From Fragilariopsis cylindrus CCMP1102 (Eukaryota; Bacillariophyta; Bacillariophyceae; Bacillariales; Bacillariaceae), in contig FMBT01000412.1 of the NCBI GenBank assembly GCA_900095095.1, positions 62,001 through 126,000 on the forward strand: a stretch of DNA of 64,000 bases. The letters are read 5' to 3'. The stretch's first letter is position 1. Each line of letters opens with the position of its first letter. The notes under the pieces were generated by a model. The model was not told the origin of the DNA and did not search any database. It saw only the letters and a program-made list of their open reading frames with translations. This document shows positions 29,253-38,695 of this stretch, piece after piece. The translations under genes were made by a program, and so were the position numbers.

Positions 29253-30452
29253 CTACCGTGCAAACCTAGCTGCATCTCGTGTCTTATTCTTTTGACGTTT
29301 CTTCTCCAAAATCTTTTCAACAGCCCTATCTCCTCCCCTCTTTTGAATCACCTCCAATTTAGCCTCGAGTTCTAATCGATATCTTTCCTTACGCTTCAAA
29401 TGGTAGACACCACTCTTACCAGATTCGACGTCACTACGGATCTTCTGTGACACTGATCTCTTTGCTTCGCGTTCAATCTTTCGACGATCTAGGTCGGCTC
29501 TTGTTTCTGTCAAAAACTTTAAACGAATTTCGTCGTCTTCTAACGTAGATGTTTGAGTACCATCGCCTGGATTTATTTGAAGCTTCCGACGTAACCGATT
29601 ACCTTTATTTCCAGTAGCCTTGTGTGCTGAAATACGTTTCCGTACCTGTCCAATTTCTTTGTTTCGCATTTCCTCTAAAAAGGCATAATTATGTTGAAAA
29701 TTATCTTCGTCGAAATGTCCACTCAAATTTGACGCTCGTGGGTCCTGTGGCTTGTACCGATGTGCACCTATATCAACACCCACACCACTCTCATTAAGTC
29801 TCGGAGCACCTCGTCCGAAAAAGTCAGCTCGTTTCGATGAAACCTCTGTAGGTTTGTGTTTACTTTTCTTCTTCTTTTTTGACGTCGTCGTATTTGTTGT
29901 GGTATTTTTTGTCTTGGAATTATTTGACTGCTGCGTTTCAATATCGTCATCGTCGTCGTCGCCAACCATCGTCTTTCGCTTCTTGTTATACTTCTTCTTT
30001 TGTGCTTGCTTGAATTTAGCTAATCGTTCACTTGCTACTTCCAAAGCTTGAGCTTTACGTTCACGAGACTTTCGGATACGACTAAAGTCATTATCTTGTC
30101 TTCGAAGTCGTTCATGTAGAGGCAAATCTTCGTCATTGTCTGAATCGTCATCGTCAACATCACTGATGTCACTATCGTCATCATTATTGTTGTTGGAGGG
30201 TGGTAAGTCTTCTTCTTCATTTTCTGAATCGTCACTATTATTTGAATCAGAGTCAGAATCACTGTCACCACTGTCGCCGTCGCCGTCACCTTTGAGATCA
30301 TTTCTATCCGACGAAGGAATCTTATCCTTTTCCTTTAAATTAGGAGCATTACCAGCGTCAATCATCTCTCCTTGAACCGATTCGTCATCACTATCGTCGT
30401 CGGATTCACTCCCGCTACTCGCTTCGTTGTAATGCTTGCTTATTGTCGCCAT
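29253..30452 (-). CDS. RRP36: RRP36-like ribosome biogenesis factor
   Basis: RRP36 acts in the nucleolus in early cleavage of pre-18S rRNA. The C-terminal half shows the family core: DPRASNLSGHFDEDNFQHNY, FLEEMRNKEIGQVRKRI, a run of charged coiled-coil sequence, then SGKSGVYHLKRKERYRLELE and a Lys/Arg tail ending KTRDAARFAR. The first 200 residues are acidic Asp/Ser/Glu low complexity followed by Lys runs (possible nuclear or nucleolar signals) and LPLHERLRRQ. At 399 residues it is longer than the yeast protein because of the acidic part. Single exon, ATG at 30452, clean frame. Confidence 0.85.
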   Translation of the reverse strand: MATISKHYNEASSGSESDDDSDDESVQGEMIDAGNAPNLKEKDKIPSSDRNDLKGDGDGDSGDSDSDSDSNNSDDSENEEEDLPPSNNNNDDDSDISDVDDDDSDNDEDLPLHERLRRQDNDFSRIRKSRERKAQALEVASERLAKFKQAQKKKYNKKRKTMVGDDDDDDIETQQSNNSKTKNTTTNTTTSKKKKKSKHKPTEVSSKRADFFGRGAPRLNESGVGVDIGAHRYKPQDPRASNLSGHFDEDNFQHNYAFLEEMRNKEIGQVRKRISAHKATGNKGNRLRRKLQINPGDGTQTSTLEDDEIRLKFLTETRADLDRRKIEREAKRSVSQKIRSDVESGKSGVYHLKRKERYRLELEAKLEVIQKRGGDRAVEKILEKKRQKNKTRDAARFAR

Positions 30453-31281
30453 TTTGCCGTTATCGATGTTATCTACAGTATATATTATGGTTTGCTTGGC
30501 TGTATTATACTTTCAACTTATGGGAAATGACAACTAAGTTGAGAATTAATTTGAGAATAATGGAGGTACACGGGAACATTATTTTTGCCAGTCGTGATTA
30601 CAGACAAGCGGTTCGTGATTTTGAGTGGTCATCGCTGCGAGTGTCAAAGGACAGACCACTTTTATGGATTCTTTATGATTATTTCGATTATTGAATTGTT
30701 GAATTCTGAATACAGTTGTACATTGTTTGTACCCTCCATTGGCAACGAACAAGAGGAAGTAAATGTGTCATATATAATGGTTACTTTTTGATTCATTTAT
30801 GTTCTAATTGTTGTTTGTGATTAGTAATGGTCACTACGGTCATCATTCTGTTGCTGAAAGGATGCTGCATGCTATACTGCGCTGCTACTCTGCTATATAT
30901 AATTTGGAAATATATACAAAAAATAGGTAGAATCAAATTATACTATGACCATGCTGATGTCTTCATTATAACAATACTGACTAATAATGACTGAATGACT
31001 AGCTTCCCTTATTGTTGTGAATTTTATGTCATGTCATTGTATTTTATGGAACTTTCTAAAAAATTGGTAAATGCAGGAACAGAACTTCAGGTAATACTTG
31101 AGCAGAAAATGTGGCTTTTAACTCAGCATGATTGACCTCGTATGATACCAGATGTATTCATTATTTCTACAGCATTTGAGTTCCTTTAGCTCATGCATAC
31201 ATATTATATTATAATATAATATACAATGGTAATTACTATACTGTACAGTTACTGTCATGATGTACAGTACCGTAGGTTGTA
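30453..31281. other. intergenic left of the DNA transposon
   Basis: AT-rich spacer with several near-palindromic AT tracts around 31200-31225. Short open frames have no signature. It ends in TA at 31280-31281, the proposed left target duplication of the element that follows. Confidence 0.5.
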
Positions 31282-31525
31282 CAGGAGCACCCGGTCCAAA
31301 AATTTTAATCGTGGAAAAATGTTGAAACACGCGCGATCATGGATTAATTTATTTCGCCGAAAAGGGGATATTATATATAACGAAAATATATTTTTATTAG
31401 AACGTGAAATTCTAATTTTTTCTAATTAATTCTAATTAATTAGAACAAAGTTCTAATTAATTCTAATTAATTAGCACTAAGTTCTAATTAATTAGAACTT
31501 TGTTCTAATTAATTAGAATTAATTA
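31282..31525 (+). repeat. left terminal inverted repeat with AT-rich subterminal array
   Basis: Outer 110 bases pair with the right end, including the shared block ACACGCGCGA and TCGCCGAAAA. From about 31401 comes an array of TTCTAATTAATTAGAAC-like units, itself palindromic. Confidence 0.8.
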
Positions 31526-31871
31526 AAAATAAATTGAGTTTGATGAATTTACTAGACCCCCCAAAAAGAACCCGTTACTAAGTCAATATAACGTCTTTTA
31601 ACGTCTTTATATCGCTAATATGGATTCATTCAGTACAAAAATCTACGTAGATTTCTACGTAAATCACTTTTTTCTAGTAGCAAGTCATCTTACCAGAAAA
31701 TAGTGAAGAGAAATTATTTTGGAGTCGGAAAATCGAAGATGTAAAGATAACACGTGTATTTTACAGGGAATTGCACTTTCATAAAAACGACGCCAGATAT
31801 TTTTCCTAACACGGTATCAACTTACCTCTATTGTTATCGCTAACAGGGTAATTTCAATTAAAAAAATTAAA

Positions 31872-32804
31872 ATGAAAATAACTGTAACAAAAAAAGGAAT
31901 CAAATCAATAGAAAACACTGCAAGAGAGATGCTTCGCTTTCCCGAAGAGCGTAAGTGGGACTCTGCAGATAAAGATGAGCGTTTCAGATCCTTATTTGGT
32001 GCACCTAGTATAGTAATTGCTGCTTTGTGGGAATCAATTCGATTGAATGTTAATGATGATGTCGAAGAAAAGCATTTGCTTTGGGGCCTTGTCTTTCTAA
32101 AAGTTTATGCAAAAAATGAAGAAATTCACTGCGCCATTGTCGGCTTTCCTACTAGGAAAGCTTTTCGTTCGAAAGCATGGCATATTGTAAATATAATTGC
32201 AGATTTAAAAGATGGGTTAATTCGATTAGAAAATAGATTTATCAATGCTCCAAATGATATGGTTGGAAGACCATACTTGACAGGCGACTGTTCTGACTTC
32301 AAGTGCAATGAACCATTCCCATGGAATAAAAAATGGTGTTCCCCAAAGTTCAAAGGACCTGGAATGAAATATGAAGTTTGCCTTGCAATATATTCTCCTA
32401 ACATTTGTTGGTCGAATGGTCCTCATTATGCTTCTGCAAGTGAAGGTACAATCTTCGCAACTGGACTAGGAATGGAACTCCCTGAAGATGAACCAGTCGA
32501 AGTTGATGCCGGTGTAAAAGGTGATCCAAGATTGATGAGACCACTAATGGGAGCGACATCAATTGCTAGAAAGCAAAAAAGTGTTTATAGAGCTAGACAA
32601 GAGTCTATATTTAACAGAATGAAACAATTCAATGTGCTAGACACTCACTTCCATCATACTTGCACCGAGGAAGAAGATTATATGAAGAAACACCAGATAT
32701 GTTTTGATTCTGTTCTAGTAATAACACAATTAAAACTTATGATGAAAGTTGATAAATTAATGGATGTAGGAGAAATAGATGAAGTTGAATATGTTATGAC
32801 GTAG
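31872..32804 (+). CDS. DDE transposase, IS5/Harbinger-like
   Basis: 310 residues, ATG 31872, one exon, intact. The catalytic core is recognisable: GDCSDFKCNEPFPW then KWCSPKFKGPGMKYEVCLAI and SNGPHYASASEGTIF (first Asp at 139 or 142), EPVEVDAGVKGD (Asp 212), and YRARQESIFNRMKQFNVL (Glu 244). The H-rich segment FHHTC with later KHQICFDSVLVITQL is also usual for this group. The first 60 residues hold a short helical region, possibly DNA binding. It should cut and join the element ends about 590 bases upstream. No second protein of known transposon type (Myb-like or YqaJ-like) was recognised in the element. Confidence 0.75.
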   Translation: MKITVTKKGIKSIENTAREMLRFPEERKWDSADKDERFRSLFGAPSIVIAALWESIRLNVNDDVEEKHLLWGLVFLKVYAKNEEIHCAIVGFPTRKAFRSKAWHIVNIIADLKDGLIRLENRFINAPNDMVGRPYLTGDCSDFKCNEPFPWNKKWCSPKFKGPGMKYEVCLAIYSPNICWSNGPHYASASEGTIFATGLGMELPEDEPVEVDAGVKGDPRLMRPLMGATSIARKQKSVYRARQESIFNRMKQFNVLDTHFHHTCTEEEDYMKKHQICFDSVLVITQLKLMMKVDKLMDVGEIDEVEYVMT

Positions 32805-32958
32805 GAGAAGGGTTGAGAGATAGGAAGGGAAGGGGAGGTATAGTAGAATGTGCAGACTGTTACAATCAATCCTATACATTTAGATTTAGCTACAATTGAG
32901 TAGATCTATCAGTATATTTAGCATTTTTTTTATTTTATTTCTATTTTCAAACATACCT

Positions 32959-33117
32959 GTAGCCTCATCAAAACAGCAATGTGTGACTATGGCAAAGAAA
33001 ACATACTAAGGTACATAAAGAAAACGTCTATTTATACTACTATTTTGTACTAAAACTACTACTTAAGCTGTTCTAAAGGTGTAAAAAATGTGAAATATAA
33101 AATCGATCTATTTTTAG
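32959..33117 (+). repeat. direct repeat copy A flanking the LRR segment
   Basis: About 160 bases starting GTAGCCTCATCAAAACAGCA and ending near AAATCGATCTATTTTTA. Copy B at 35284..35443 has the same orientation and is about three-quarters identical by eye, closest at AAATGTGAAATATAAAATCG. Confidence 0.8.
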
Positions 33118-33274
33118 AGCTTATAAAATGATTTTTTTTTCATTTTTTTCTATGATTCATATTACAGTAACTCTTCCCGGGATTTCTTATAAGAAAGTTA
33201 CAATATTATCATTCCCAATTATTTGTAATGTCTCCATGCTTGAAAAAACAGGTCAGTGCGTTTCATTTTTTCAC

Positions 33275-34666
33275 TTAGTACTTAATCTGTTTCTTGACAA
33301 CACGAGGATAATATGCACGTTTACGTTTATACCTTTCTGTTTGTCCAGTTGCAAAGATTGGTCCATTTCGTAATAAATGATAAACAATATCATGTCGTAT
33401 TTCCTGTTTAAAATTATCTTCATCACGTATATCACTATCTTGATTACATGTCCGATACGATTTACGGAATGCTTTAGAAATTGCCAGTGGACAAACTGAA
33501 AGAGGGATTGTTTCTGGTCGACCTGTCATTGAAAATGCATCAATAGAATTCATTGAAAGTAAATATTCAATCTTGTTGATCTTTTTTCTTTGATCAATTG
33601 GAAGTAATGAATCATAACTAAAAACTTTCATTATACCCACCGACGGATATAGTTTTTCCAAAAAGTATATTACACTATCTAATTCTTCATTATTAACTGG
33701 AATTCTTGTACCTGATAGTTTGATTGTTTTCAAATTCGTTGCCATTGTTGTTGGCACAACATTGTAGTAGTCGATAAGAAGGGATGGAACATAGTCATCT
33801 GGTGCTGGTGTCGGTGGTGGTGGTAACTGCAATACGTCCATAAAGGAATCAATTTCAGGATTATCATTAATGATAAGTGTATGTAAATTAGGAAATTTAC
33901 TATCTGATCCCATTTCGAATAATATATTATATAAATCTTGATTTGTTAAACCCGAACCACTAAATGTTATACGCTGTAATGACAAACGGAATTGAAGTGT
34001 TGGAACAACTGTTGCTGAAGATAATTCATTGATCCAACGATGACCTAAATTAACTGTATCATTATTTCTTTTATCCCATCTCATTAATGATATATGTTTC
34101 AAATTTGATAAATTTCGAAATTTCATTGGTGTTAACTCTTCACAATCAGTAATCTTTAATTCCTTCAAATTGTGTAATCCTAATCCTAATAATGATAAAT
34201 TAATGTTATGACAACCATCTAATTGAAGACGTACTAAGCAATTCAAATAATTCATTGATTCTGGTAACGGACCAGTACAATGATATAATTCAATTATTTG
34301 CAATTGATCCATAATAGCAATATCTCTTGCCATTCTCCACATTGGTCGGTAACCTAAAGTTCTTTGTGGTGCTAATATATTTTGAAGACGTTCCCAATAT
34401 GTATTATCTTTAATTTTAAGATGTGTAATCCGTTGACAACCAGTAGGATTGATAATAGTGTTAGTTTGTGATTTTTCATAACATTGTTGTGGTCCTGTTG
34501 AATAGGATCTCCATTTCGAACGATCAATTAATTTTAATAATACACTATCTTCCATTCGTTGTATTTGTTCTATGGTTGGTATCTTTCTTGGGTAATTTAG
34601 TTCCATATATGGATGATGTAATACTACTAACTCAGCAGCAGCAGGTGGTTGAGGATTATTCGCCAT
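33275..34666 (-). CDS. leucine-rich-repeat protein of a diatom-expanded family
   Basis: 463 residues, ATG 34666, one exon. Irregular LRRs run from about residue 70 to 330: ITHLKIKDN, LQIIELYHCTGPLPESM, LVRLQLDGC, LKELKITDCEEL, LKHISLMRW, LQRITFSGSGLT and LKTIKLSGTRI. The C-terminal region IPLSVCPLAISKAFRKS followed by IVYHLLRNGPIFATG matches the end pattern I associate with a large diatom LRR family of unknown function, then a basic tail. It has no signal peptide or membrane helix. It lies inside the transposon between direct repeats A and B, so it looks like captured host cargo. Its frame is clean, which suggests it is recent or kept by selection. A GATAT microsatellite sits immediately before its start codon. 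Confidence 0.75.
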   Translation of the reverse strand: MANNPQPPAAAELVVLHHPYMELNYPRKIPTIEQIQRMEDSVLLKLIDRSKWRSYSTGPQQCYEKSQTNTIINPTGCQRITHLKIKDNTYWERLQNILAPQRTLGYRPMWRMARDIAIMDQLQIIELYHCTGPLPESMNYLNCLVRLQLDGCHNINLSLLGLGLHNLKELKITDCEELTPMKFRNLSNLKHISLMRWDKRNNDTVNLGHRWINELSSATVVPTLQFRLSLQRITFSGSGLTNQDLYNILFEMGSDSKFPNLHTLIINDNPEIDSFMDVLQLPPPPTPAPDDYVPSLLIDYYNVVPTTMATNLKTIKLSGTRIPVNNEELDSVIYFLEKLYPSVGIMKVFSYDSLLPIDQRKKINKIEYLLSMNSIDAFSMTGRPETIPLSVCPLAISKAFRKSYRTCNQDSDIRDEDNFKQEIRHDIVYHLLRNGPIFATGQTERYKRKRAYYPRVVKKQIKY

Positions 34667-34670
34667 CGTT

Positions 34671-34753
34671 GATATGATATGATATGATATGATATGATAT
34701 GATTTGATATGATATAGAAATAAATAAATGAATGAATGAATGAATGAATGAAT
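34671..34753. repeat. microsatellites GATAT and AATG
   Basis: GATAT pentamers at about 34671-34716 followed by AATG tetramers at about 34724-34753, directly upstream of the LRR gene's start. Confidence 0.8.
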
Positions 34754-34956
34754 AGTACGCTAAACCCAGTAACAGGCTAGTAACAACAAAAAACCTGAAA
34801 ATCACATAGTCAGATCATTAGTGGTAACGGGAATGGAGGATCAATTTGTTTTCCCACGATGAACATGTTTTGTTTCATGCTTTTTGTGTGTTGTTTGTGT
34901 ATTAACAAATTTACATCGTGATCATCGTAAGAAAACAACTTTTTTATGACTAGCTC

Positions 34957-35104
34957 GAATCACGCTTGAAGTAAAAAAGAACTGGTTATGAGCCTAATAA
35001 TGAAGAAACCACGTCATAATATCCGGGTTATTGTAATAGATTTTAGATAAACTTCAATTCAAAATTAGCTCATAACCAGTTATTTTTTTCTTCAATTTTG
35101 ATTC
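34957..35104. repeat. foldback element inside the transposon
   Basis: Arms of about 37 bases: GAATCACGCTTGAAGTAAAA...AACTGGTTATGAGC on the left and its near reverse complement on the right. The inner 14 bases match exactly. About 75 bases lie between the arms. MITE-like, nested in the larger element. Confidence 0.7.
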
Positions 35105-35283
35105 AAATTTTGTCTCAAATCGAAAATATTATCAAATTCCACGTAGAATTCTACAGGCACGTGCAGTACTGAAACTGATTTCAAAGGGGGTAGTACAGGA
35201 AATTTGAAGAATAACAGAAAAAATAAAAAAACTATAATAGATCTTATTTGAGTTCAACCCTGTTGCGATCATACCGGTATGTC

Positions 35284-35443
35284 GTAGCCTCATTAAGACA
35301 GCAATGTATGACTAGTACAAAGAATATCTACTGTCTCACTAGAAAAATCATCTCTGTTGATACTACTATTTCGTACTAATACTACTACGTATGCTGTTCT
35401 AGAGGTACGAAAAATGTGAAATATAAAATCGTTCTATTTTAGT
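35284..35443 (+). repeat. direct repeat copy B flanking the LRR segment
   Basis: Partner of the copy at 32959..33117, same orientation. The two copies bracket the LRR gene, its upstream microsatellites and the foldback element. Confidence 0.8.
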
Positions 35444-35820
35444 GCTAAATATGTATTCCCATATCATTTTCTCTATTTAGTGTTGTTGTAGCATCAGCAT
35501 CAGCAGCAGCAACGATTACAGAATAGCGATTAATGTATAGACTGGACTTCTGCGTTCGCGCCTCATTGGTAGGTAACTTATAATCATTCCCAATCCCCAT
35601 TTCCCTTCCTTTTATTTACGTATAGTTGTTTATTTCCCTTTCAATCTCATCTAAACCTTCTTGTAATGACAACAACGGATCTAGATCCGACATTGATTCA
35701 ATAGAATCATCACTAGAACTGACACTTGCAGCAGAGAAAGTTCCAATAGAATGTGATGATCCCAATGCAAGCATTCAGGCCATAGTATTCCCTACAGATA
35801 AAGAGAAAGCAAGCACAACG

Positions 35821-37640
35821 TTAGTTTTCTAGTAATGACTTGCTCTTTTGTCTTGTTACGGCTGGTTGGTCTCTTCTACGTTTTGCATCTCTCTCCCTTG
35901 TGTCCATTGCAACGACGCCATCATTTTCAATGGTGGTAGGACCATTAGCGAGTTGTCGTGGAGGTGATGTAGGCGCCGGTAGAATGGGATCAATCGATTC
36001 AATCGGCATTCTCTCTTCCTTCTCAACATAGTCTTCAACGTATTTCATCATCTCTACTGGTCTTCCATCGTATTGATTCATAACTTGAGGGATGAAATCT
36101 CCATTAAGCAAGCTTTGGTTGTTCTCCATTAGAAAACTAACCATATAGAAGAGATCTTCTTCAGCACCACTGTATCCATCTATTATCTCTTGTCTTGGTG
36201 GAGTTAAACCATGATGCGTGTACAGACTAGCGAAACGGTTATAATCAAAAGCATTTGTTGATTCTTTTTCATCTTCACTACCTTTCGATCCGTCTGGATC
36301 AATCGACTTACCTATATATATATATAAAGAATGAGGAGATAATAGAAGTGAGAAGCATGTATGTCAAATTCAATACAAAAATACATACACATAGGAATCG
36401 AATTTACCTGTTTTTGTCTTTCTTGCAGAGGTTTTGATAGTCTTCTTCCTCCCGTCTTCCGGTTGCTTCTCTTTCAAGATGAGTTGATGGACTTTGATTG
36501 AGCCGGCATCTGGCAATACTTCTCCTGCCTTCTTATCAAGATCCTTATCCTCTATTACAACAGTAAGAACTTCAGAGATACCAAAGGTGGAATCCATTGG
36601 ATTGTCAAATTTGAATACAATCTTGTCGAACACCTTTGGATCTTGTTCGTCAGTGAGATCAGCTCTCTGTTCAAGGTATCTAGCAACAGAATTGAATACA
36701 ATATGATCTTCAGGAAAATGGAATTCAGCTGGGGCAGTTGAATCTTTTTGAAACTGAACATGACTTCCAATCTTCCAAAAGAAACTTGGCCATTTAATGG
36801 TAAGAACAAGAGTACGGTCATCGGTCCATTCCAATGTAACCATTCTCTCAGTAAGACAGTTGTGTGGGATCATTCGAATCAGAATAAAACTATTAGTTTC
36901 TAGTTTGAAGGGAGTGATTCTTTTCTCTTTAGTGTATCGACCACACAGAACAGGAAATCCCAAGCCAGCACTAGCCATTGCTGGAAGCCCTTCAAGACTG
37001 GTGCCATCGAATTGTTTAGTAAGATCATCGATGGACATTTCCGTCTTTGACTTGACTGCTGGTGCTTTCTTTTGCTTCGACATTCTTGGTGTTGATTTGG
37101 GACGTGCTTTTGGCTTTTTTGGTGATGGTGTTTTGAAGCCTTCCTCTACTTCTACTTCTTCTTCTTCTTCTTCGTAGTCGTCGTCGTCTGATCCTTCCAC
37201 TTCGATTTCAATAGCTTCTGGTCCTGTTCGTGCTTCTTCTTCTATGTTGTTGGTATTCAATTTTCCAGCAGGTGGATCTAGAATTGGTTCGTCAATAACA
37301 GTATTGTTTGAGATCAATTCTAATGCAGTTTCGCAAAGACCCTACAACAAACAAGAACATGTTAGTGGAACGAAGTAAATAACAACTATGAGTACAACGC
37401 GATCTTCCTACTTACTTTAGCTTGAGCTCTAAATTGTTTCTGTGTTAGATAATATTTTACGTTACCAGAAATAGAGTAATCAGTAACACCTCCTACAACA
37501 CCTGTTGGAGTTATGCCTTGTTCGTTGCCTGTCTGTTGACCTCTATAATAGAGCCAGATTATTCTCTGTTTGATACGACTTGCTCTTTGGTATTTTTCTA
37601 TAGCGGGTTGTCTGTCTTTTGTACTTGTGGTTTGTGCCAT
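35821..37640 (-). CDS. three-exon protein of unknown function carried by the DNA transposon
   Basis: I do not recognise the protein. Exons on the minus strand are 37416..37640, 36408..37341 and 35821..36311; introns of 74 and 96 bases are GT-AG with matching phase, giving 549 residues. The start is MAQTTSTKDRQPAIEKYQRA. After the first exon comes an acidic tract (SDDDDYEEEEEEVEVEEG), a Lys/Pro/Arg-rich basic stretch (PSPKKPKARPKS), then a globular-looking region with GFPVLCGRYTKEKR, VTLEWTDDRTLVLTIKWPSFF and VFDKIVFKFDN that is probably beta-rich. The last exon is acidic then basic (RDAKRRRDQPAV). Charged tails suggest nucleic acid or chromatin binding, an inference. Its place beside the right TIR makes it a candidate second transposition protein or cargo. 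Confidence 0.7.
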
Positions 37641-37976
37641 TGGTAGTGTTTTAAGCTAGTTTCATTGTAAAAGATTAAATAAAAGTGAGTGAGTCATTTG
37701 TCAGCTTGTCTTCTGTACAGTATTAGTGCTTTTGAGCGTGGTTTTTTTCTTCAACGTGTTAGCACCGCGTTAAAAAAAAATGACAAGATTAGAAGGTTTT
37801 TCGATACTGATCGGCTCCTCCGACCGTTATTCGATACTTAGACTGATTCTATTCAAATAGGTCAAACACACGATACATCGTTGTTTGTCTTTGGTTTTGA
37901 CCGTTATAATTAACGTCTGGTCTTCCTTTGAAATGCGACCTGGAGGGCTCGAAAAACTTTCTATAGTATGGTTCTA

Positions 37977-38224
37977 TTTTTTTCTAATCAATTCTAATTA
38001 ATTAGAACTAAGTTCTAATTAATTAGAACTAAATTCTAATTAATTCTAATTTATTAGAACTAAGTTCTAATTAATTAGAACTATATTCTAATTTTCTATT
38101 TCCAATGGACCGTTTCGGTTTTTGGGCTATATATTATTCCCTTTTTTCGGCGATATAATTAAACCGTGGTCGCGCGTGTTTTCCCTTTTTTCCACGATTG
38201 AATTTTTCAGACCGGGTGCTCCAG
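37977..38224 (-). repeat. right terminal inverted repeat with AT-rich subterminal array
   Basis: Inverted partner of the left end. The same TTCTAATTAATTAGAAC-like units fill about 37983-38095, and the outer part carries TTTTTTCGGCGATATAATTA and TCGCGCGTGT facing outward. Confidence 0.8.
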
Positions 38225-38695
38225 TAGACCTTCTTTAGTTAACGTATTCGAGATTCAAAGTGATATAACGATTAATAAACCGTTAGAAAACAAAACTTCA
38301 ATAGTTCTTCGTCGCTATGCAAAACTTTACTTAAGGGACCAGAGGAAAAGAGTGCGCTTTTGACACGGTCCACAAACACGCCAACGAATCAGCAGCATTC
38401 TACACACTTTTACGAGACAATTTCGTCGAATTGCGCCTTGATTGTGAAAGGTTCACGTACAACATTTCGCCTATTCATCACCTATTGAGAAATCTTTTTC
38501 GCTTCTCTGCTTGTCCCCCCCATCTTCTATCAACCGTAACCGTTGTGGCTCAGAGAGATTCGCCAAGGTCTGAGGTCTGACTGCAACTGCTATTTCAATT
38601 TAAATTTTGCCCCTACCGTACACACTCTATTTATTTATATACCTGAAGTATCTATGTTCCAACTACAAGATCTGGGCTACTAGCTAACAATAAAG
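38225..38695. other. intergenic right of the DNA transposon
   Basis: Starts with the right-hand TA (38225-38226). Holds the upstream region of the next gene. No RNA gene or repeat recognised. Confidence 0.5.

Follow-up and report, generated by a model that had tools for sequence, protein, structure and literature searches.

The 64,000-nucleotide stretch of the Fragilariopsis cylindrus CCMP1102 genome analyzed here (contig FMBT01000412.1, positions 62,001 to 126,000; hereafter the window) contains at 31285-38221 a DNA transposon proper, with inverted repeats at its ends, a DDE transposase, an intact leucine-rich repeat (LRR) gene and a three-exon gene, designated gene 3. The element is PHIS-like, encodes a transposase and a partner (gene 3), and duplicated 3 bp, CAG, on insertion at TACAGTA. 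Its relatives are built to the same plan, transposase -> [slot] <- gene 3, with the LRR gene as the passenger of the window element. The slot is optional, and its coding sequence varies between elements; its 5' module and part of its 3' module are retained. The window element is referred to as C664 (W664), and all C-numbers denote contigs of one genome, within which all comparisons were made.

Architecture of the element

The features of the element, in window coordinates, are:

31282..31284, strand not applicable: left target-site duplication CAG with outer TA (TACAG); the empty site on C526 reads TACAGTA
31285..31384, plus strand: left terminal inverted repeat (GAGCACCCGGTC...), with 34 genome matches among those listed
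31408..31541, strand not applicable: subterminal array of TTCTAATTAATTAGAA-type palindromic units
31872..32804, plus strand: transposase open reading frame (ORF), 310 aa, intact
32941..33219, minus strand: 3' module downstream of the passenger, ~280 bp, with 41 genome matches among those listed
33275..34666, minus strand: passenger LRR gene, 463 aa, intact
34659..34880, minus strand: slot 5' module, the upstream region through the start codon (ATGGCGAA), common also to elements with a different passenger
35284..35446, minus strand: 3' module again, now downstream of gene 3; ~80% identity with the copy at 32941..33219
35821..37640, minus strand: gene 3, predicted 549 aa, exons 37640-37416, 37341-36408 and 36311-35821
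37972..38093, strand not applicable: right subterminal palindrome array
38128..38221, minus strand: right terminal inverted repeat
38222..38224, strand not applicable: right target-site duplication CAG (empty site on C526, TACAGTA)

Residues D139, D212 and E244 of the transposase are invariant in 10/10 aligned proteins, and by their fit to the DDE motif they are the putative catalytic residues. The sequence-only reading had described an intact IS5/Harbinger-like transposase; intactness was borne out by the 310-aa frame, and the superfamily holds only broadly, as the window protein has no Pfam match at E<=1 and DDE_Tnp_4 was matched by three of six transposase relatives, all below threshold (best match E=3.7e-4 with 20.6 bits, the cut-off being 24.8). 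A search of PDB sequences with the transposase profile returned six matches, all to fluorescent proteins at E>=0.29, which were rejected as chance. Among viral contigs, 25 stretches fit a pattern for transposase relatives and none was confirmed.

The predicted introns of gene 3 are 74 and 96 nt long and of the GT-AG type. The core of exon 2 was modeled, with low confidence, as a possible alpha-crystallin/CS-like beta sandwich; in Foldseek searches with both models every match had an E-value above 0.001, and the gene 3 profile gave only three chance-level matches among PDB sequences. Separately, a 330-base piece of gene 3 (79% DNA identity) lies at C108:445498-445832, on a contig without a transposase match.

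Transposase relatives with at least 45% identity were found at 16 loci. At nine of these, exons of gene 3 were found next to the transposase; the remainder were either unmatched or read too short, and reading of C351, C425, C640, C80 and C489 stopped short of the far ends. Transposase and gene 3 recur together with or without a passenger and form the core of the element.

Termini, target site and mobility

The left end of the insertion reads CAGGAGCACCC from 31282, and the right end reads CTGGAGCACCC on the reverse strand from 38224. Identity between the two terminal inverted repeats (TIRs) is 82% across 100 columns and 76% across 264. The ends differ in their second base (CAGG versus CTGG) because these bases belong to the target duplication, which is CAG on one strand on both sides. 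An identical trinucleotide on one strand flanks both sides of all nine same-TIR elements read at both ends, seven of them larger and two resembling miniature inverted-repeat transposable elements. It is CAG in seven (C664, C265, C56, C678, C113 and two short elements on C89) and CTG in the other two (C570 and C79). An outer TA is present on both sides in 5/9 elements (C664, C570, C56, C678 and C79), so that the preferred insertion site seems to be TACWGTA. The TA noted earlier next to the window element is present there; TA as the target duplication was rejected, the duplication being CAG/CWG, which fits 9/9 elements.

The flanks of the window element, when joined, match C526:19969-20067 with 99% identity across the junction, where the homologous site is empty and reads TACAGTA. 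Over the 651 bases fetched, 556 of 614 aligned base pairs agree, and further length differences lie away from the junction. The gene adjoining the element is also found on C526, with 95% protein identity; C526 could represent either a duplicated window locus or the other haplotype. Because this homologous locus is empty, the window insertion is recent or still segregating, and the divergence between its TIRs is older than the insertion and does not measure insertion age.

A second full-length copy is located at C265:1069489-1076462. The transposon with inverted ends, a transposase and two intact genes proposed from the sequence is thus real, as judged from this copy, the TIR matches and the empty site. 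The same genes between TIRs of the same kind, a check that had been proposed together with the empty site, recur in C265 and partly in C43, and the layout is also seen in C570, C56, C678 and C90. The first 100 bp of the element have 34 genome matches among those listed. Besides C664 and C265, these include five inverted TIR pairs spaced ~400-600 bases apart (two on C89 and one each on C739, C587 and C368), which are short derivatives. No empty homologous site was found in a search made for the C265 insertion. C647 carries a homologue of the C56 insertion locus (C647:31560-31860) without the element; since ~15 bases are missing there, with further changes at the insertion point, it shows absence of the element, not a clean empty site, and the gap is possibly an excision scar.

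A passenger slot with exchangeable contents

The slot 5' module has nine genome matches, all nine inside elements, of which C664, C265, C570, C706, C56 and C678 were read at both ends and C43, C90 and C609 at one. It precedes the LRR gene in six (C664, C265, C570, C609, C706 and C43) and an unrelated ORF, the second passenger, in three (C56, C678 and C90). Similarity between the two kinds of slot stops at nucleotide 8 of the coding sequence, directly after ATGGCGAA. The LRR and second-passenger proteins are not alignable (hhalign probability 0.2%), although the second passenger is perhaps also LRR-like. The LRR protein itself matches Pfam LRR_14 at E=3.6e-4, below the family cut-off; its profile had no match among PDB sequences at E<=0.1, and the second-passenger profile had none at E<=1.

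Among the 16 transposase loci, C664, C265, C43 and C570 carry the LRR passenger and C56, C678 and C90 carry the second one. In C79, C287, C351, C113, C640 and C80, the stretches after the transposase and before gene 3 are directly contiguous. The parts of C90 are the same, but its gene 3 unit has been relocated and lies inverted; the right end of C90 was looked for and not found. From the window alone, mobilised host cargo and a multi-gene element kept by selection had been offered as alternatives, and each fits in part: transposase and gene 3 are the core, and the LRR gene is an exchangeable passenger, probably of host origin.

Apparent exchange of passengers between elements

C265 and C570 share a block of 2908 columns (96.8% identity) that runs from just past the transposase stop through the slot, and 99.4% of the aligned bases of their LRR coding sequences are identical, with 11 frame-breaking gaps; their transposases are 48.3% identical and exon 2 of gene 3 is 29.3% identical. 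C570, C56 and C90 have transposases of a single kind (74.7-83.5% amino acid identity); C570 holds the LRR gene, and C56, C678 and C90 hold the other ORF. As the C570 transposase groups with those of C56 and C90, one kind of element holds different passengers and different kinds hold the same passenger. Unequal divergence is also seen along single elements: between C56 and C90, synonymous divergence is 1.12 for the transposase, 0.25 for gene 3 and 0.26 for the passenger, and between C664 and C265 the 5' module shows no substitutions over 329 aligned bases, compared with 7.3% of sites differing in the transposase.

The LRR module was further found in another element with different TIRs (GAGGTTGCC), present as two copies on C706 and C609 (98.3% identity over 5516 columns). 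These hold a distant transposase in pieces, an ORF with a MYND finger (Pfam E=2e-10) and the same LRR module with a broken frame. The C706 transposase pieces are frameshifted and 27-31% identical to the window transposase. C706 is flanked by AGT on both sides; C609 shows AAT at the only end available, as the element runs into the contig end. The 8-kb element (C706:142948-151030 and C609:1-5480) also contains a second, shorter ORF that by eye resembles the MYND-finger ORF, and an ORF without Pfam matches in the position of gene 3. Judged from these sequence comparisons, passenger genes appear to have been swapped between mobile elements.

Origin of the LRR gene

Two longer LRR genes, on C464 and C67 (open frames of 637 and 801 aa), have no TIRs in the flanks read. 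The two stretches are collinear over ~8 kb and may be alleles or duplicates of one gene. They resemble the mobile LRR gene over its coding sequence only, to within 13 nt. Mobile copies lack the in-frame linkers of C464 and C67 and the long N-terminus of C67; introns in the host-type genes, and with them capture of a spliced copy, were considered as the source of the gaps and rejected, the gaps being in-frame low-complexity linkers. Mobile copies differ among themselves by p-distances of 0.010-0.083 and from C464 and C67 by 0.107-0.139. At 47 sites diagnostic for mobile or host type, the LRR gene of C43 shows 40 mobile-type states, then six consecutive host-type states near the 3' end and a last mobile-type one; this pattern suggests a trace of exchange with a host copy. 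C464 and C67 look like the donor type of the mobile gene, and a host origin of the LRR passenger is probable.

In the account that we favor, the coding part of a host LRR gene would have been joined once, in frame, behind the element's own start codon, and the finished LRR module would then have spread from one element family to another, with shared flanks serving recombination or gene conversion. The passenger might be expressed from the module of the element, and its LRR surface might contact host factors, for example against silencing of the element; such an interaction could keep the passenger frame while its amino acids turn over fast. Taken as a whole, from the PHIS-kind element and its exchangeable slot to the single joining of the host LRR, the movement of the module between families and the interaction with the host, we consider this account likely.

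Selection on passengers and alternative explanations

Ratios of nonsynonymous to synonymous divergence (dN/dS) were obtained with a Nei-Gojobori script, the counts depending on the alignment: the LRR genes of W664 and C265 differ by 92 nonsynonymous and 26 synonymous changes, or by 71 and 16 when trimmed and aligned in the other aligner mode. The transposases gave 0.09-0.28 (seven pairs), gene 3 exon 2 gave 0 to 0.67 (four pairs), the host LRR pair gave 0.37-0.43, and mobile compared with host LRR genes gave 0.60 and 0.69. Among mobile LRR genes the ratio was 0.96-1.17 for C664-C265, 1.19-1.23 for C43-C265 and 1.07 for C664-C43, the last from 15 changes only. For the second passenger it was 0.96-1.10 for C56-C90 and 0.93-0.94 for C678-C90, in comparison with 0.27 for the close pair C56-C678. 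In diverged pairs the passengers contrast with the transposases at Fisher P 0.001 and 1.5e-8.

Despite these ratios, the frames of the diverged passengers stay open. Under a simple model in which substitutions are placed at random, 4.0-4.3 stops would be expected among the 83 substitutions of the C664-C265 LRR pair and 6.8-7.2 among the 189 of the C56-C90 second-passenger pair; none was found in either (P 0.01-0.02 and 0.001, respectively). Upstream of the diverged C-termini, every length change is a multiple of three (6/6 and 4/4 cases). We read this, from sequence comparison, as a passenger coding sequence that is probably kept open yet changing quickly.

Several observations weigh against the favored account. 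The 95% intervals of dN/dS in the diverged pairs (0.74-2.17 and 0.79-1.60) span neutrality and mild purifying selection; as they reach below 1, relaxed constraint may also explain a ratio near 1. In the two close pairs the stop test does not discriminate (P 0.33-0.44). Gaps, most of them 1 bp long, break the frames of the passengers of C570, C706 and C609, so that the slot gene may be dispensable; either real decay or errors left uncorrected when near-identical repeats were assembled could account for these breaks. The LRR gene of C265 loses its frame near the C-terminus. Nine of the 16 transposase loci (C79, C287, C351, C113, C425, C640, C80, C489 and C733) match neither passenger, and a passenger is therefore not needed for mobility. 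Finally, slot specificity is limited to the 5' module, since the 3' module is also found behind genes of an unrelated family.

Much of this would be expected from plain hitch-hiking, in which a single chance event brought in a host LRR gene that now drifts, and the exchange is ordinary, functionless gene conversion among repeats. Ratios near 1 between diverged copies, the broken copies in C570, C706 and C609, and the transposase loci without a passenger match, among them the near-identical C113, C351, C425, C640 and C80, all agree with it. However, drift does not readily account for the lack of stops in two diverged pairs, for the multiples of three (although triplet slippage biases these counts), for the ratio of 0.27 between C56 and C678, or for an unrelated second passenger in exactly the same slot. 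We regard hitch-hiking as a serious possibility that falls short of an even chance. A somewhat more doubtful proposal is that of an interchangeable cassette, in which LRR-type coding sequences would be exchanged between fixed 5' and 3' modules, across groups of TIRs and target sites, and would serve the element against host control.

The slot gene could instead be an old, fast-evolving gene of the element itself, with the LRR gene and the other ORF only looking unrelated and C464 and C67 being domesticated copies. This is unlikely, since noncoding DNA flanking the two passengers is 75-89% identical and their coding parts cannot be aligned, identity drops off abruptly at codon 3, and the mobile LRR has neither the long N-terminus of C67 nor the linkers of C464 and C67. 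Mimicry of module swaps by chimeric contigs or collapsed repeats is very improbable: the C265-C570 block does have 28 gap openings to 33 mismatches, suggesting poorly corrected repeats, and homologous contigs were assembled apart, but the units that contain the slots are bounded by TIRs and flanked by matching CWG duplications (C664, C265, C570, C56 and C678), C56 and C678 show the same arrangement between different flanks, and 9/9 5' modules fit the pattern.

Relation to known transposon systems

PHIS elements are relatives of PIF/Harbinger; within PHIS, the NuwaI group has a CWG target duplication and is reported in animals only, according to the sections of PMC4482050 covered here. The window element resembles this group in its DDE transposase, two-gene core, 3-bp CWG duplication and empty-site evidence. 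By the same sections, the NuwaI partner carries Myb/SANT, whereas none was found in gene 3 by Pfam; NuwaI TIRs usually begin with GGG, whereas that of the window element begins with GAG; and the sections describe no passenger slot. As partner and TIR start differ and NuwaI is reported in animals only, we call the element NuwaI-like PHIS, not a member of NuwaI. The Pangu group of PHIS, as covered in PMC4482050, has an ANT duplication, with which AGT on both sides of C706 is compatible, as is AAT on the one available side of C609; unlike Pangu as described there, these two hold an LRR and a MYND-finger ORF.

In the part of PMC8903248 covered, Pack-TYPE elements are DNA transposons that acquire host coding sequence and reshuffle it. 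They are non-autonomous, whereas the window element keeps an intact transposase and partner, and the coding sequence captured here occupies a fixed slot and follows the start codon of the element itself. In the part of PMC5735166 covered, VANDAL elements with VANC are likewise multi-gene DNA transposons, in which the non-transposase gene, an anti-silencing one, is more variable than the transposase. VANC (DUF1985/DUF287) binds element DNA and causes loss of methylation; the passenger shows no resemblance to it, and the parallel is one of analogy only.

The pickup of host genes by DNA transposons is thus already known, and the fixed cargo slot in otherwise complete elements would be the new part. 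Open-access word searches returned no titles or abstract starts with a fixed slot for replaceable coding sequence or with LRR cargo in Harbinger-type elements. If the account is true, eukaryotic transposons gain an analogue of the cassette exchange known from bacterial mobile elements, and a system with a homologous empty site becomes available for testing fast-evolving transposon genes against host silencing in algae.

Additional observations

The gene family that shares the 280-base 3' module starts with MSGSDLAPFVAAVL or alike and is by eye unrelated to the passengers. Its loci are L085:2406-3026 (C770) and C674:97592-98242 and 98749-99570 (L086). On C674, two such gene copies form a large inverted duplication, and a DUF6824 domain, of a kind typical of diatoms, is present on the same contig. 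For the 3' end of the second passenger, three equally scoring decayed pieces were found (C762, C700 and C308), each adjoining a 3' module.

C113, C351, C425, C640 and C80 are five near-identical passenger-free elements, with gene 3 present where read. C113 and C425 are 97% identical over 3.2 kb, and the transposases of C113 and C351 are 99.7% identical; the compact form seems to have undergone a recent burst. Retrotransposon frames, by eye of Copia type, flank the LRR-bearing copy of C43 on its far side (C43:26301-29548). An Rfam search over 31200-38300 of the window gave no matches, and near the element, at 29253-30452, lies an RRP36 rRNA biogenesis gene (Pfam E=1.6e-27).

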